Positions 2,200 through 30,478 of a stretch of 36,930 bases of DNA are shown here, piece after piece (positions within the stretch are counted from its first letter, which is position 1; the number at the start of each line of letters is the position of its first letter). Source of the DNA: a virus. The DNA is taken from positions 1 to 36,930 of IMG/VR virus record IMGVR_UViG_3300035070_004509; one strand, 5' to 3'. Position numbers and translations under genes: made by a program. Under the pieces are notes generated by a model. It worked only from the letters and a program-made list of their open reading frames with translations, had not been told where the DNA came from and did not search any database.

Positions 2200-4509
2200 T
2201 TGTCCCAAAACGAAAAAGTAAAAAACATAAATAAGGCCGCTATTCTGGCAGAAATCCAGAAGCGAGCCGAACGTGTTAAAGTAAAAAAGTTTAGTATTGA
2301 AGATTATTGCTTTACTGAACAAATAAACTTTATTAGAGACCCTGCCAAATTTAAAACCGCAGTATGCTCAAGACGTGCCGGAAAATCAGAAGCTTGTGCC
2401 GCAGACCTTGTTGATACTAGTCAAAATTTGAAAAATGCTACCTGCCTATATATAACATTAAGTCGCGTATCTGCCGAACGTATTATTTGGCGTACTTTAC
2501 TAAAAATAATTGAAGAACATCAACTTAAAGTTAAAATAAATAATAAAGAACTTTCCATTAAGTTTTTAGACACCAATTCTATGCTATACGTGTCAGGTGC
2601 AAAAGACGCTACCGAAATTGAAAAGTTTCGTGGTATGTCTCTAAATAAGGTTTATATTGACGAATGTTTTCACCCAGATACATTAATAGAAACTTTATCA
2701 GGATTAAAAAAGATTTCAGGTATTTCCACAAAAGACTATGTAAAAAGCGCCTTAGGCTTTAAAAAAGTAACTGAAATTACAAAAAAACAAAAAAATCTAT
2801 TTACAAAACTGATTTTCAATGGTAAAGTGATAAAGTGTTCATTAGAGCATCCATTTTTAACCGATAACGGTTGGAAAAAAGCTAAAGATTTAAAAGTAGG
2901 AGAGAATCTTGTTAAAACCACAACAGCAATGCGACTATTGCAAGAAGCTATTCACGAAACCAGGCCGGAGGATTTATCGGTTTTGCAGTCTACATTGTTG
3001 TGGGAAGTGGAGTCGAGAGAATTGTCCGAACCCAATGGAAAACAAAGATACTCGAGAAAAAATGGCAGCAACTTTGAAAAGAGTTGGACACAAACCAACA
3101 ATTCGAAAAGGGAACGGACATGGACCAACAGAACCAGAAAAATTAATTATGGAAGCTATTCCAGAAATTACTTGGAACTTTGCAATTGGTTTAGGAAGTC
3201 GTGGAAATGGTTATCCCTCCAACTACAAAGTGGATTTAGCTTTTCCAGAAGTAAAATTAGCGATAGAAATAGATGGCTTATCTCACAACCTAATATCAAG
3301 GAGAGAACAAGACACGAAGAAAGTAGCGAAACTAAGTATATTAGGTTGGAAAGTATTGAGATTCAAGAATCTAGAAGTGATTCAACAAACCCAGAAGGTT
3401 ATTTCTACGATATTGGAGTTGAGGGACACCCTAGTTTCACAGTCAACGAAGTATTAGTACACAATTGTCAATCCTTTAAACCATATATAAAAGAACTGGT
3501 AGAAGATGTACTAAGCTGGGCAACAAAAGACGTTGCTGGAACTATGTGCTTTACAGGCACTCCTGGACCAATACCTGCAGGCTACTTTTATGAAATGTCT
3601 ACTAAAACAAATAAAAAAGTTAGTCAACATAAGTGGACACTGTTACAAAATCCCTGGATAAAAATAAAATCTGGCATGGAGCCTGCTGAAATATTGGCAG
3701 AAGAACGTGCCCGTAAAGGTATAACTGAATCTGACCCAACATACAGACGAGAGGCTCTCGGAGAATGGGTTAAAGACGAAAATGCACTGGTAATAAAATT
3801 CTCACAAAACAAAAATGTGGTCAATTCATTTCCTACAGATTTAACATATATATTTGGAGTAGACATTGGTTTTAATGATGCTGATGCAATTGCTGTAATA
3901 GGTTATAATTACACTTCCAACAATGTATTTTTGGTAGAAGAAGTTGTTCAAGCAAAGCAAGACATAACTACCCTAGTTGGCAAAATAAAAGACCTTCAGG
4001 CATTTTATAAGCCAGTAAAAATTGTTATGGACGCAGGAGCACTAGGTAAAAAAATACAAGAAGAGATTAGAAACAGGCACGGAATAAATGCCGAAGCTGC
4101 CGATAAAAACCGTAAACTGGAGTATATAGAGTTACTTAATGATGACCTTAGGTCAGGACGTTTTAAAACATTTCCAGGTAGCATATTTGAACAAGAATCT
4201 AATATTATAGTATGGGATTATGATGGGCCTGTGAAGAAAATTTCTGACCGTACACATTCTGATTTGCTCGACTCAGTTTTGTATAGTTTCCGTGAAGCAA
4301 AACATTATTTTGAAAAAGAAGTTAACAAAAAGGCAGAAAAGTACTCTAAACAATGGTTAGACGAACAAGAAATGCTATTAGCACAACAGCTTAAAAATAA
4401 AATGAATGATGAAGAAGATATTGTCAGCCAGGATGACATTGAATCAATATTTGAAGATGATTCAGAAATGTTTAGTATATCAGATTCCAGCGGAGACGAC
4501 TGGTATTAG
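2200..4509 (+). CDS. terL: Terminase large subunit precursor, interrupted by an intein
   Basis: A 769-residue precursor; excising the intein (residues 156-422) leaves a 502-residue protein, a normal size for a podovirus terminase. It is the ATP-driven DNA packaging motor with a nuclease that cuts the concatemer. Walker A-like SRRAGKS is at 57-63, and Walker B KVYIDE ends at 155, directly before the intein. The coupling motif FTGTPG is at 451-456. The RNase H-like nuclease acids are D555 (VDIGFND), D611 (VMDAGALG) and D688/D691 (HSDLLDS). The start is TTG at 2200 with AGGTGG about five bases upstream. Because the intein splits the ATPase centre, activity should need splicing. A separate endonuclease is encoded out of frame within the intein part. 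Confidence 0.93.
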   Translation: MSQNEKVKNINKAAILAEIQKRAERVKVKKFSIEDYCFTEQINFIRDPAKFKTAVCSRRAGKSEACAADLVDTSQNLKNATCLYITLSRVSAERIIWRTLLKIIEEHQLKVKINNKELSIKFLDTNSMLYVSGAKDATEIEKFRGMSLNKVYIDECFHPDTLIETLSGLKKISGISTKDYVKSALGFKKVTEITKKQKNLFTKLIFNGKVIKCSLEHPFLTDNGWKKAKDLKVGENLVKTTTAMRLLQEAIHETRPEDLSVLQSTLLWEVESRELSEPNGKQRYSRKNGSNFEKSWTQTNNSKRERTWTNRTRKINYGSYSRNYLELCNWFRKSWKWLSLQLQSGFSFSRSKISDRNRWLISQPNIKERTRHEESSETKYIRLESIEIQESRSDSTNPEGYFYDIGVEGHPSFTVNEVLVHNCQSFKPYIKELVEDVLSWATKDVAGTMCFTGTPGPIPAGYFYEMSTKTNKKVSQHKWTLLQNPWIKIKSGMEPAEILAEERARKGITESDPTYRREALGEWVKDENALVIKFSQNKNVVNSFPTDLTYIFGVDIGFNDADAIAVIGYNYTSNNVFLVEEVVQAKQDITTLVGKIKDLQAFYKPVKIVMDAGALGKKIQEEIRNRHGINAEAADKNRKLEYIELLNDDLRSGRFKTFPGSIFEQESNIIVWDYDGPVKKISDRTHSDLLDSVLYSFREAKHYFEKEVNKKAEKYSKQWLDEQEMLLAQQLKNKMNDEEDIVSQDDIESIFEDDSEMFSISDSSGDDWY
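2665..3465 (+). other. Class 1 intein in the large terminase, inserted after Walker B
   Basis: A 267-residue intein from Cys (2665-2667) to Asn (3463-3465), followed by Cys+1. Block A is CFHPDTLIETLSG. The N4/B region is LEHPFLTDNGWKKAKDLKVGE. Block F is YFYDIGVEGHPSFTVNEV, and block G is VLVHN followed by C, with the usual penultimate His. All residues expected for standard splicing are present, so it should be active. Between the N- and C-terminal splicing blocks the reading frame holds no recognisable endonuclease. It reads a Ser/Arg/Asn/Trp-rich linker of about 160 residues. The endonuclease is instead encoded in the +1 frame over the same bases. Confidence 0.92.
2909..3457 (+). CDS. EDxHD (Vsr-like) homing endonuclease, overlapping the intein in the +1 frame
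   Basis: A 182-residue protein read one base out of frame with the terminase/intein. It has its own start: TTG at 2909 preceded by AGGAGA (2898-2903). The N-terminus holds a zinc-binding pattern (C8-x2-C11, C26-x2-H29-C30). The C-terminal domain has the very-short-patch-repair/DUF559-like nuclease core: E75/E77, D109 in YKVDLAF, LAIEIDG (E120, D122), H126 in LSHN, D135, then LGWKVLRF. This matches the EDxHD homing endonucleases described with inteins and fractured genes. It probably cuts intein-free terminase alleles to spread the intein. The last 18 or so codons lie over intein blocks F and G. The whole gene sits inside the intein coding region. Confidence 0.85.
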   Translation: MLKPQQQCDYCKKLFTKPGRRIYRFCSLHCCGKWSRENCPNPMENKDTREKMAATLKRVGHKPTIRKGNGHGPTEPEKLIMEAIPEITWNFAIGLGSRGNGYPSNYKVDLAFPEVKLAIEIDGLSHNLISRREQDTKKVAKLSILGWKVLRFKNLEVIQQTQKVISTILELRDTLVSQSTKY

Positions 4510-6745: not shown

Positions 6746-7294
6746 ATGAAAACTTGTTGTGTATGTAAAATTAAACAACCTAAGGAAAACTTCTGTAAAA
6801 ACACCCAAGCAAAAGATGGATTAAATTATCAATGTAAAAGCTGTAAAAAAATAATTGGAAAAAAATACTATTGGAGTGATACAGAAAGAGAAAGTAATAG
6901 GAAAAAAGAATACTATATAAAAAACAAAGAAATTTTAAATAAAAAAATATATAAATACAAAAAAGAAAGAAAGAAGACCGATAAACTATTTAAATTTTCA
7001 GAGGATACTAGGCGCCTTATAAGACAAGCATTTAAAAGAAGAGGTTTTACAAAGAATACCAAAACATATCAAATATTAGGATGCTCTTTTGAAGATTTTA
7101 AAATTCATCTAGAAAACCAATTTGTACCTGGAATGAACTGGGGTAATCGCAATAAATGGCATATAGACCACATAGTACCAGTTAGTTTAGGGAAAACTGA
7201 AGAAGAAATAATAAAATTGAATCATTATACTAATTTAAGACCACTTTGGGCTGAGGAGAACCTTAAAAAAGGCAGCAAATATGAGCAGGTCTAG
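6746..7294 (+). CDS. Free-standing HNH endonuclease with N-terminal zinc finger
   Basis: A 182-residue protein. Residues 4-33 form a CxxC...CxxC zinc finger with the spacer KDGLNYQCKSC typical of phage HNH proteins. The middle is a lysine-rich helix. The HNH core is KWHIDHIVPVSL (H139, D141, H142), then NLRPLW (N163) and AEENLKKG (N172). It is expected to nick or cut DNA with a metal ion and to behave as a homing endonuclease. It starts one base after the portal stop and overlaps the next gene by 14 bases, as expected of an insertion into a tight operon. It shares the finger and HNH layout with the gene at 10153. The target site is unknown. Confidence 0.85.
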   Translation: MKTCCVCKIKQPKENFCKNTQAKDGLNYQCKSCKKIIGKKYYWSDTERESNRKKEYYIKNKEILNKKIYKYKKERKKTDKLFKFSEDTRRLIRQAFKRRGFTKNTKTYQILGCSFEDFKIHLENQFVPGMNWGNRNKWHIDHIVPVSLGKTEEEIIKLNHYTNLRPLWAEENLKKGSKYEQV

Positions 7295-27689: not shown

Positions 27690-28178
27690 CTATTTAACTT
27701 CTCCTACAAAAATATACTCTCCAAACAGTAATTTTGCTTTTTCATCGTATGCAAGCTTAGCTTCTAATTCAGTGTTATAAGTCCCTAAAGGTATTTTTTG
27801 TTTTTTAAATTGAATCTGTGCCTTCCATTTACCATTTTTTGCTTGATGAACTCCTTTATAAGAAGATGTTTTTTTATTATATCTTGGTCTTGCATTAATA
27901 TTATTCCCAACATGGTCAGTAATTCTTAAATTAGAAATACAATTATTCAAAGGATTTCCATCTATATGGTCTACTATTTCATTTTTTAAAGCTCCTGTTA
28001 ACATTCTATGAAGTCTATAATGTTTTCCTTTTAAAATCCCTACAACATATGTTCCATAATGTCTTTCTGTAGAATAAAAATTCCACTTAATTTTATTATA
28101 AATTTCAAAAGACTCTAAATCAATATTTATTTCTTTTACTCCAAATTTAGGAGTATATTTAAAAATACGCAATCTCAT
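27690..28178 (-). CDS. HNH homing endonuclease with AP2 domain
   Basis: A 162-residue protein. HNH_3-type core: HRMLTGALKNEIVDHIDGNPLNNCISNLRITD (about residues 57-88; H, DH and N positions present). A C-terminal AP2-like DNA-binding domain follows: SSYKGVHQAKNGKWKAQIQFKKQKIPLGTYNTELEAKLAYDEKAKLLFG (about 105-153). This combination is typical of phage homing endonucleases. Its ATG overlaps the DNA polymerase stop in ATGA, as expected of an inserted element that adopted the operon's coupling. The DNA polymerase gene is a common target for such elements, but I cannot see its recognition site. Confidence 0.87.
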   Translation of the reverse strand: MRLRIFKYTPKFGVKEINIDLESFEIYNKIKWNFYSTERHYGTYVVGILKGKHYRLHRMLTGALKNEIVDHIDGNPLNNCISNLRITDHVGNNINARPRYNKKTSSYKGVHQAKNGKWKAQIQFKKQKIPLGTYNTELEAKLAYDEKAKLLFGEYIFVGEVK

Positions 28179-30478
28179 TTAGACTCCGCTAAATTCTTCC
28201 CATGTGAAGGAGGTGCTGTTAATTTAACAGATATTTCATAAGCTGTTTCCATAGCCCATTGTAACATATCTAAAGTCTCTTGTAAACAAGAATCTTCACA
28301 TAAAATAGTAATTTGGTCATGTACTAAAGCGCATATATAAGCATTTAGGCCGCGGTTCTTTATTTCCTTAGCCGCTTTTATCGCAGCCCTATTTGTTATA
28401 GATGCAGCTAATCCTTGAATTTGAAAATTAGCAGCATTGTTTACCAGGTTTTTACATATTCCTGCAGCAGTTTTGGCTTGTTGGTACATTTCTGGATAAT
28501 CATGATACTCTTTCCAAAGTTCTAAACCGTCGAATAATAGGTCACCATATTTTTTATAATAATCTTGTAATTCAGGATAATGTCTAATTCTGCCTGCTTC
28601 AGTAACCATTTTTCCTTCAATACAAGCCTTTTTAATACTGTTATCTAGCCATTTTTTAAGGTTAGGATAAGCATTAAAATAAGAGTTATAAATTTTCTTA
28701 GCTTCTTCTTCAGAACAGTTTAGTTCAAATTTTAGCTTATATGGAGACATGTTGAAAGCAAGTCCTAGTGCATATGCCTTAGCTCTTTGTCGAGCAGCTT
28801 TATTTAATTTACCTAGGTAATTTTCAGCTTTTTTATTAGCAGAGTATTCGGTTAAACCTTCTGAAGCTATACATACAGAACTATAAAAATCATCTCCGTT
28901 CTCAAAAATATCTTTAATGCGTTGTTCACCAGATACGTGCGCAAACACTTTTACTTCCTGACTGTCATAGTCTAAGTCGACAAATGACTTTTCTGACCCT
29001 GATATAAAAAATCTACGAATCCTGTTAGTATATTCTACAATTGCTTCATCAATATTCTGTTCTTTTGCTTCTTTTTCATCAATAGGTCTAGGCAATTGTT
29101 GAAAATTAGATGATAATCTGCCGGAAGTGGTACGATGAAGCATGAAACTTGGATAAAATATACCATCTTCCTGTTCTTCTAAAAATCTGTCTACATATGT
29201 TGACTTTATTTTGTTTAAGCTGTTCAGGCGTTGAAGTTTTTTAACCCACCCATATTTGCTGGATATTGCAGTTAAGAAAGCATCATCTACTTGCGCCTGG
29301 CCTTTGTCTGTCCGGCTTATAGGTGTTTCATTTAGGGCAGATTCTACCGTGGAAGAACCAAAAAATAGACGCTTCAAATGGTCTTTACTACTCAAGTTAA
29401 AAATATGTTTCACACCGTCTTCTGCCAACAATGCTCGCTGTACTTTATGAATCAGTTCTGCAGGCACTCTCACTTTACCAGAAATATAGTTTTCAAATTC
29501 AGATTCTTGCAGTAACGGTCTAATAATTCCTTTTTTTATCTCAGTTTTTGTCAACTCTTTTGCCCGCTTAAGGTCAGCAACATTAAAAGATAGTTTGCCG
29601 GAGTCTGACCGGGGCCATAATTCTGGTGCAATAAATTCTCCAAGTTTTTGCTTGAATCTGGCATTTAGTTCAAATGGGTAGTTTTTGGTCATATACCATT
29701 TGTTGAAGCTGCCTAATAGCGGCGCTATTTCTGCTTGAATTTGTTCTTCCAAATTTACTAAAATTTCCGCCAATTCGACTTGTGTTTTTTGCATAAACGG
29801 TATGTCTACAGGTATACCATACAACTCGGCATAAATGGTTACATGCCTGTAAAGCTCTATTGTTTCTAGCTGGTAAAATTCCTCCAGTCCGTCGGTGGCA
29901 AGTTGTTCCTGAAAATGTTCACACAGGCTGTATGTTAATTTTACGTCCTGTATAGCGTACTTTGCCCTAATGTTGGAGTCTGCCATAAAATATTGTTTAG
30001 CAGTTCCACCGTTTGCTTTTATTGACTGTAACATGTCTGTTTTTTCTGCAGTAGCATTTTCGCCATATATATCTGCAGCAATTTCTTTCAGGCCGTAACT
30101 AAATCTATTTTCATTTACAAGATGAGCCTTTAACATGCCGTCTTCCCAAATAGATTCTATTAGATTTACTCCAAAATAATGATATACAAACCTGGTATCA
30201 AAACTGCCATTCCATGTTCTGAGCCTGCACTTTTTAAGTTTGTTCAGTATTAGTGTACAAACTTGCTTAGACACAACTTCTTCAAGCTCTGCACCATTCC
30301 ATTTTCGGTGAACAATGTTGTAAGCAGTTTTTCCGTCATATAGTGCAATATCAGTAATCAGGCCCGAACGCACATTTAAAGAATTTGTCTCCAAGTCAAA
30401 TGCCCATATTTGCCCCGCACTAATTTTTTGCAGTAGAGACATGGCCTCTGCATTTGTTTCAATTATTTTATCTAACAT
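28175..30478 (-). CDS. Family A DNA polymerase with 3'-5' exonuclease domain
   Basis: A 767-residue phage replicative polymerase. Exonuclease: FDLETNSL (D28, E30), NGSFDTRFVYHYFG and the third motif IQDVKLTY with Asp. Polymerase: motif A DYDSQEVKVFAHVSGE near residue 500, motif B RQRAKAYALGLAFN near 565, and motif C ALVHDQI near 720 with catalytic Asp. At the position of E. coli Pol I Phe762 the motif B residue is Leu. No 5' nuclease domain is present. The start overlaps the preceding stop (TAATG) and its stop overlaps the HNH gene. Helicase and primase genes are not in this window. Confidence 0.93.
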   Translation of the reverse strand: MLDKIIETNAEAMSLLQKISAGQIWAFDLETNSLNVRSGLITDIALYDGKTAYNIVHRKWNGAELEEVVSKQVCTLILNKLKKCRLRTWNGSFDTRFVYHYFGVNLIESIWEDGMLKAHLVNENRFSYGLKEIAADIYGENATAEKTDMLQSIKANGGTAKQYFMADSNIRAKYAIQDVKLTYSLCEHFQEQLATDGLEEFYQLETIELYRHVTIYAELYGIPVDIPFMQKTQVELAEILVNLEEQIQAEIAPLLGSFNKWYMTKNYPFELNARFKQKLGEFIAPELWPRSDSGKLSFNVADLKRAKELTKTEIKKGIIRPLLQESEFENYISGKVRVPAELIHKVQRALLAEDGVKHIFNLSSKDHLKRLFFGSSTVESALNETPISRTDKGQAQVDDAFLTAISSKYGWVKKLQRLNSLNKIKSTYVDRFLEEQEDGIFYPSFMLHRTTSGRLSSNFQQLPRPIDEKEAKEQNIDEAIVEYTNRIRRFFISGSEKSFVDLDYDSQEVKVFAHVSGEQRIKDIFENGDDFYSSVCIASEGLTEYSANKKAENYLGKLNKAARQRAKAYALGLAFNMSPYKLKFELNCSEEEAKKIYNSYFNAYPNLKKWLDNSIKKACIEGKMVTEAGRIRHYPELQDYYKKYGDLLFDGLELWKEYHDYPEMYQQAKTAAGICKNLVNNAANFQIQGLAASITNRAAIKAAKEIKNRGLNAYICALVHDQITILCEDSCLQETLDMLQWAMETAYEISVKLTAPPSHGKNLAESK

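Follow-up and report, generated by a model that had tools for sequence, protein, structure and literature searches.

A phage terminase intein that probably carries its homing endonuclease gene in an overlapping +1 reading frame

Introduction

In canonical homing-endonuclease inteins such as PI-SceI, the endonuclease lies inside a Hint splicing domain and is fused to it in frame; in fractured genes, described with split inteins and a Vsr-like endonuclease (Dassa et al. 2009, in the account given by PMC11766414), the endonuclease separates two half-genes. A further layout is that of the ShiLan element, in which a phage methylase gene conceals an HNH endonuclease read in a different frame (Arsenault et al. 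2025, PMC11855218). Here we describe a locus in a 36,930-nucleotide (nt) stretch of viral DNA (IMG/VR record IMGVR_UViG_3300035070_004509, positions 1 to 36,930; the whole stretch is called the window below) in which terL, the terminase large subunit gene, contains what is very probably a mobile intein, with its homing endonuclease encoded by a separate gene that occupies the +1 frame of the intein DNA.

The locus shares with canonical inteins the Hint domain, the insertion in an active-site motif, the endonuclease inside and the sporadic distribution, but its endonuclease is read in another frame and would be a separate protein, leaving the intein with only a disordered linker. With fractured genes it shares the kind of enzyme and the kind of host gene, and the fractured layout is found in its relatives (L055, L075, L094, L168 and L171); in the window, however, the host gene runs unbroken through the intein, with the endonuclease gene overlapping it. 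The ShiLan element is the nearest published case: it too is sporadically distributed and has an other-frame endonuclease in an insert that is open in the host frame, but that insert lacks a splicing domain, is thought to be retained in the protein and encodes an HNH enzyme, and no ribosome-binding site was found for it (PMC11855218), whereas the window has both a Hint domain and a DUF559 enzyme. The literature that we covered, which did not extend to Dassa 2009, Taylor 2011 or a 2025 preprint on non-canonical intein architecture in actinophages (10.1101/2025.01.02.630785), yielded no description of this layout in a true intein, and some part of it may well have been described already.

Results

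Two overlapping genes in the terL locus

Positions 2200–4509 (+ strand) form a single terL frame with zero stops, which encodes a terminase-intein-terminase precursor of 769 amino acids (Terminase_6N/6C, Intein_splicing; phrog_5653, terminase large subunit), in which Pfam and PHROGs recognize the ATPase part of the terminase, the intein and the nuclease part in turn; the calculated spliced product has 502 amino acids. The intein (2665–3465, +; 267 amino acids, boundaries set by motif) runs from Cys1 to His-Asn, is followed by a Cys as +1 extein residue, and interrupts the Walker B motif of the terminase at VYIDE/CQSF (the slash marks the insertion point), which reads VYIDE/AQSF or CQSF in intein-free homologues. 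Nested within it, in the +1 frame, is a gene of 182 codons with a TTG start and a TAG stop (2909–3457, +), whose product matches DUF559 (2e-12) and MTES_1575, while the intein frame matches Intein_splicing (PF14890, 7.4e-12). The nested frame becomes open just 9 nt upstream of the TTG, from 2900, and a Shine-Dalgarno (SD)-like AGGAG (2898–2902, +), spelled by the codons for VGE, a conserved intein motif, lies 6 nt from the start codon. These coordinates and details agree with the original prediction, which had proposed a single terminase-intein-terminase frame and, in its +1 frame, a 182-residue EDxHD/Vsr-like endonuclease with a TTG start and its own AGGAGA.

Between 2600 and 3500 the intein frame contains no stop and the third frame 27, and the endonuclease frame has none over 2900–3454. 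When the synonymous codons of the endonuclease were permuted, 11.7 stops were expected in the intein frame and none is present (P < 1/2000), whereas the third frame has 18 stops against 16.5 expected; in the reverse permutation, which keeps the protein of the intein frame, 4.4 stops were expected in the endonuclease frame and again none is present. Neither frame is open by chance. The endonuclease is offset by +1 from the intein frame rather than fused to it, and host gene and intein, with no stop in their common frame, are not broken into two open reading frames (ORFs). The layout is thus distinct both from in-frame fusion and from fractured genes, as had been claimed for it.

The intein has an intact splicing domain and a disordered linker

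In the structure model of the intein, the N-terminal part of the Hint domain (2665–2916, +; residues 1–84) has predicted local distance difference test (pLDDT) values of 92–98 in its blocks, and the C-terminal part, which ends in VHN (3337–3465, +; residues 225–267), values of about 84–95. The stretch beneath the endonuclease gene (3025–3336, +; residues 121–224) is nearly devoid of secondary structure, mostly has pLDDT below 55, and is predicted to be a disordered linker. In addition to these confidently modelled halves, profile matches to gp41-1 and other solved inteins point to a Hint fold. The window intein has C1, H62 of block B, H266, N267 and the +1 Cys; in an alignment of 60 inteins C1, T6, H62 and N267 are invariant and H266 almost so (three rows from annotated records were left out of the structure-model alignments). 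The terL intein is predicted to splice autocatalytically.

The insertion is absent from some terL homologues, at identities of 78% and below: L247 (78% identity in the C-extein, VYIDE/AQSF), L251 and L248 have empty sites, which indicates mobility. The site of L248 has a Cys at +1 (VYIDE/CQSF), where the other empty sites have Ala; this Cys may have been left behind by an intein since lost, or may make the site a ready target. A related terminase (L253) contains, 5' of its terL match, a different intein near the Walker A region, which apparently carries an in-frame LAGLIDADG-type domain.

The nested gene encodes a Vsr-like enzyme

The AlphaFold model of the endonuclease has a mean pLDDT of 93.7, and its best PDB matches in Foldseek are I-Bth0305I (3r3p; E 9.5e-4, prob 1.0), the Neisseria protein 3hrl and, more weakly, Vsr (1vsr, prob 0.92); a profile comparison with 3r3p gives E 0.01. 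I-Bth0305I is encoded in a group I intron. Its likeness to the window enzyme lies in the catalytic fold and in the homing context in a phage; the two proteins share only about 20% identity, and the likeness covers the catalytic domain. A zinc-finger-like Cys cluster (C8, C11, C26 and C30; 2930–2998, +) precedes the catalytic core P103...K107-x-D109...E120-x-D122-G-x-S-H126...D135...N154 (3215–3370, +), which is invariant or nearly so among 62 relatives. C8 and C11 are invariant, and C26 and C30 almost invariant; of the putative active-site residues, D109, D122, H126 and D135 are invariant and E120 almost so. The motifs common to the relatives are the N-terminal Cys cluster, NPM/GNG and the core K-x-D...ExDGxSH...R...D...GW..RF.N. 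Model and motifs identify the nested enzyme as an intact DUF559/EDxHD (Vsr-like) endonuclease, which is predicted to cleave the empty site sequence-specifically.

The +1 overlap recurs across relatives

A tblastn search found the enzyme within helicase genes of five cultured phages (Vibrio CP-T1, 159E43-1b and 1.194.O, Pseudomonas MR14 and Corynebacterium phi673), in each case in the +1 frame of a continuous coding sequence bearing intein motifs. A scan with the window endonuclease alone as query found no relatives, so that these were reachable only by alignment-based scans, which covered viral and genome contigs and returned 80 + 80 loci and, later, 80 more. In the first scans, nearly all loci with a full-length enzyme had an enclosing frame with 0 stops at a constant offset, while the third frame had about 12 stops. 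In 106 loci, Cys1 and [HS]N followed by C/S/T flank an out-of-frame endonuclease, which is offset by +1 every time; 78 of these are non-redundant at 80% DNA identity. Altogether, 192 loci reduced to 135 distinct ones at 85% amino-acid identity, a tally that is no census: 124 are continuous and out of frame, 5 are fractured, 4 have no intein (two of these being distant DUF559 proteins), 1 is in frame (L246) and 1 has a single stop (L228). The host genes are SF2/SNF2 helicases, terminases and DnaX-type clamp loaders, and the usual insertion site is DE/C of Walker B. No such element was found on plasmids, where only one weak DUF559 match appeared. Far from being a singular oddity, the +1 overlap is the arrangement that predominates in this endonuclease family.

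In L246 (about 2400–3600), a relative of the enzyme is fused in frame within an intein of a phage head-type protein, which is the canonical architecture within the same broad family. In L228 (3001–3729), a DnaX-type intein has a single stop beneath the nested endonuclease; it is possible that this stop is an early step toward fracturing, or a sequencing error. In L207, an intein-free helicase gene, whose frame is broken exactly at the DE/CHH insertion site, possibly by a mis-repaired cut or an assembly error, is immediately preceded by a free-standing endonuclease relative.

Both frames are kept open by selection

In the 78 non-redundant loci (12,549 codons), the endonuclease-preserving permutation predicted 514 stops in the intein frame, and none is observed; the third frame contains 1000 against 917 expected. 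In the reverse permutation the endonuclease frame has none against 179 expected. Both frames stay open across relatives, which is the check that the original prediction had named. Differences between 24 close pairs fall on endonuclease codon positions 1, 2 and 3 in numbers of 714, 609 and 1429 (5590 compared), and the amino-acid difference is 18% in the endonuclease vs. 32% in the intein frame. This pattern of substitution indicates purifying selection on the endonuclease; the excess at position 3 and the two levels of amino-acid difference point to a conserved endonuclease above an intein-frame linker that drifts yet stays open, which the intein model, with confident Hint halves and disorder beneath the gene, fits well. 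Distances between Hint domains and between endonucleases are correlated (Mantel r 0.59, p 0.0005).

These data bear on two other explanations. The endonuclease frame could be an inactive relic or by-product, an in-frame enzyme having been displaced by compensating indels or by assembly errors; endonucleases commonly decay in the course of the homing cycle, and L246 provides one distant in-frame relative. We regard this as highly improbable, given that the same +1 phase is found in more than 170 loci, independently isolated phages included, that catalytic and zinc residues are invariant or nearly so, and that the frame is under purifying selection. The insert could also be an RNA intron with an ORF, the open terL frame being accidental, and it is true that EDxHD, one of six homing endonuclease families, is best known from group I introns, chiefly those of phages (PMC3943268, PMC3984707). 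Yet the window has no Rfam match, and the Hint motifs, the confident Hint model and the 514 missing stops leave this explanation with next to no probability.

Expression of the endonuclease

Every one of the 65 aligned endonucleases has a start codon that follows the last stop and precedes the first zinc Cys. Anti-SD pairing of −5 kcal/mol or stronger is found for 63% of the starts within 20 codons vs. 30% of other starts in the same frame of the same genes (p 2.5e-5), and the fractured relatives encode the endonuclease as a distinct ORF that has its own ATG. On these signals, internal initiation is the best-supported model for expression of the putative endonuclease, and it is moderately supported.

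Several points weigh against our interpretation. Permutation of the intein codons retains most of the SD signal (mean −5.1 vs. −5.8 kcal/mol), so that much of this signal is explained by the intein protein sequence; the conserved intein motif GD/GE spells SD-like codons and partly accounts for what is retained. Anti-SD pairing is weak for about one third of the starts examined; in a simple SD scan many loci showed no signal, among them the closest relative, L007, which has no canonical SD of at least 4 nt there; and the enrichment in duplex energy is moderate. Moreover, the relatives come from linked searches, and translation, splicing and cleavage are all read from sequence.

An alternative to internal initiation is that programmed +1 ribosomal frameshifting produces the endonuclease as a fusion to the N-terminal part of the intein. 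The offset in the EDxHD family is always +1 and start signals account for only part of the loci, both of which would suit such a mechanism; but a shift in the window would be confined to the 10 codons between the opening of the frame and the first zinc Cys, no common slippery motif was noticed by eye, a start codon is available in every aligned endonuclease, HNH and LAGLIDADG enzymes (see below) occur in +2 as well, and the enzyme of the fractured relatives has an ATG and an ORF to itself. We consider frameshifting unlikely.

Fractured relatives form one clade, probably a derived one

In L055, L075 and L094, three ORFs encode the N-extein with IntN, the endonuclease, and IntC with the C-extein; L168, L169, L171 and L223 have the same fractured layout. 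The intein halves of these relatives are mutually in phase, the endonuclease is in +1, and 15–27 stops lie between the halves; in L055, L075 and L094 their number, 15–26, equals that in the third frame. In a quick tree with Shimodaira–Hasegawa-like approximate likelihood ratio test (SH-aLRT) support, the five distinct fractured loci form one clade (SH-aLRT 99), with a single change on the tree and nested among continuous forms, which suggests that fractured forms are derived from the overlap. It is likely, judging from this tree, that continuous overlapping inteins became fractured once the intein frame was no longer under constraint; the direction is weakly rooted, the root being one distant in-frame relative, L246.

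The original prediction had suggested the opposite course, re-fusion of a split locus. One family does hold both architectures in the same phase, but re-fusion would need the removal of all the stops between the halves, and independent overlaps with other enzymes exist. With the fractured relatives forming one derived clade inside the continuous ones, their halves still in phase, this origin appears very unlikely, and the suggestion was not upheld.

Other endonucleases nested in inteins

A search independent of the endonuclease used an alignment of N-terminal Hint domains (A8) as query; A8 derives from this same family, and the resulting frequencies are not unbiased. Among 80 loci, the EDxHD enzyme is in +1 in 52 and in frame or in +2 in none. 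The 70 non-redundant loci comprise 43 with an out-of-frame EDxHD enzyme, 9 with other long out-of-frame ORFs, 7 with in-frame enzymes (by eye), 3 mini-inteins and 8 unclassified. In Pfam, the nine other nested ORFs include HNH_3 in L298, L314, L317 and L322 (all +2), LAGLIDADG_2 in L331 (+2; the isolate Xanthomonas phage FoX3) and LAGLIDADG_3 in L304 (+1); L297 (+1) has an HNH match slightly below the cut-off, and L295 and L291 have no Pfam nuclease match, although a LAGIIDGEG motif is visible by eye in L295. Most of the surrounding host ORFs contain intein domains. Each of the nine has 0 intein-frame stops, which alone is not significant in some of them (P0 0.29 for L314, 0.09 for L322). The terL inteins of Tetrasphaera TJE1 and Acinetobacter Highwayman likewise contain out-of-frame HNH enzymes. 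HNH and LAGLIDADG enzymes nested in other frames indicate that the layout arose several times. Out-of-frame HNH or LAGLIDADG enzymes were seen in inteins of terminases, a glycosyltransferase and a helicase (L298, L304, L314, L317, L322, L331, L336 and L337).

Neighbouring genes

Elsewhere in the window, a trypsin-like protease gene (Trypsin_2, 1e-14; 1057–1812, +) lies 5' of terL, an endonuclease VII-like gene (phrog_1035; 6746–7294, +) immediately follows the portal gene, and a free-standing HNH endonuclease gene (27690–28178, −) overlaps a family A DNA polymerase gene (28175–30478, −) by 4 nt.

Discussion

Our analysis suggests that the terL intein and its endonuclease are made independently from overlapping codes: two frames kept open by selection, a conserved phase, intact splicing and catalytic residues, and empty sites in relatives all speak, at the level of sequence, for a functional mobile element. 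Assembly error, an inactive relic, a group I intron and an origin by re-fusion were rejected on the recurrent phase, the conserved residues, the lack of an Rfam match in the window and the nested position of the fractured clade.

We propose that translation of the terL frame yields a precursor from which the splicing domain would excise itself in cis, the disordered linker that joins the Hint halves being the other-frame reading of the endonuclease gene. The endonuclease would be made from the same mRNA, most likely by internal initiation at the TTG behind the AGGAG, and would cut intein-free terL at the sequence encoding Walker B, whereupon repair would copy in the whole element. If a lineage turned to trans splicing, the intein frame under the endonuclease would be released and stops could accumulate until a fractured gene resulted, as the tree suggests. 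Because most indels would also destroy an important host gene, the overlap may guard against loss of the endonuclease.

On balance, we think it probable that dual-coding inteins are common and repeatedly evolved in phages, with EDxHD, HNH and LAGLIDADG enzymes in +1 or +2, and that at least some fractured genes and natural split inteins evolved from them. Comparison of the continuous, one-stop and fractured versions of a single element makes the origin of both testable. The arrangement would give intein biology a third architecture and phages a large family of long overlapping genes on the same strand. It would also mean that a phage intein seemingly without an endonuclease can have an intact one concealed in a different frame. 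With the double-coded design in well over 100 phage genes, mobile elements of this kind, so far little noticed, may be widespread.
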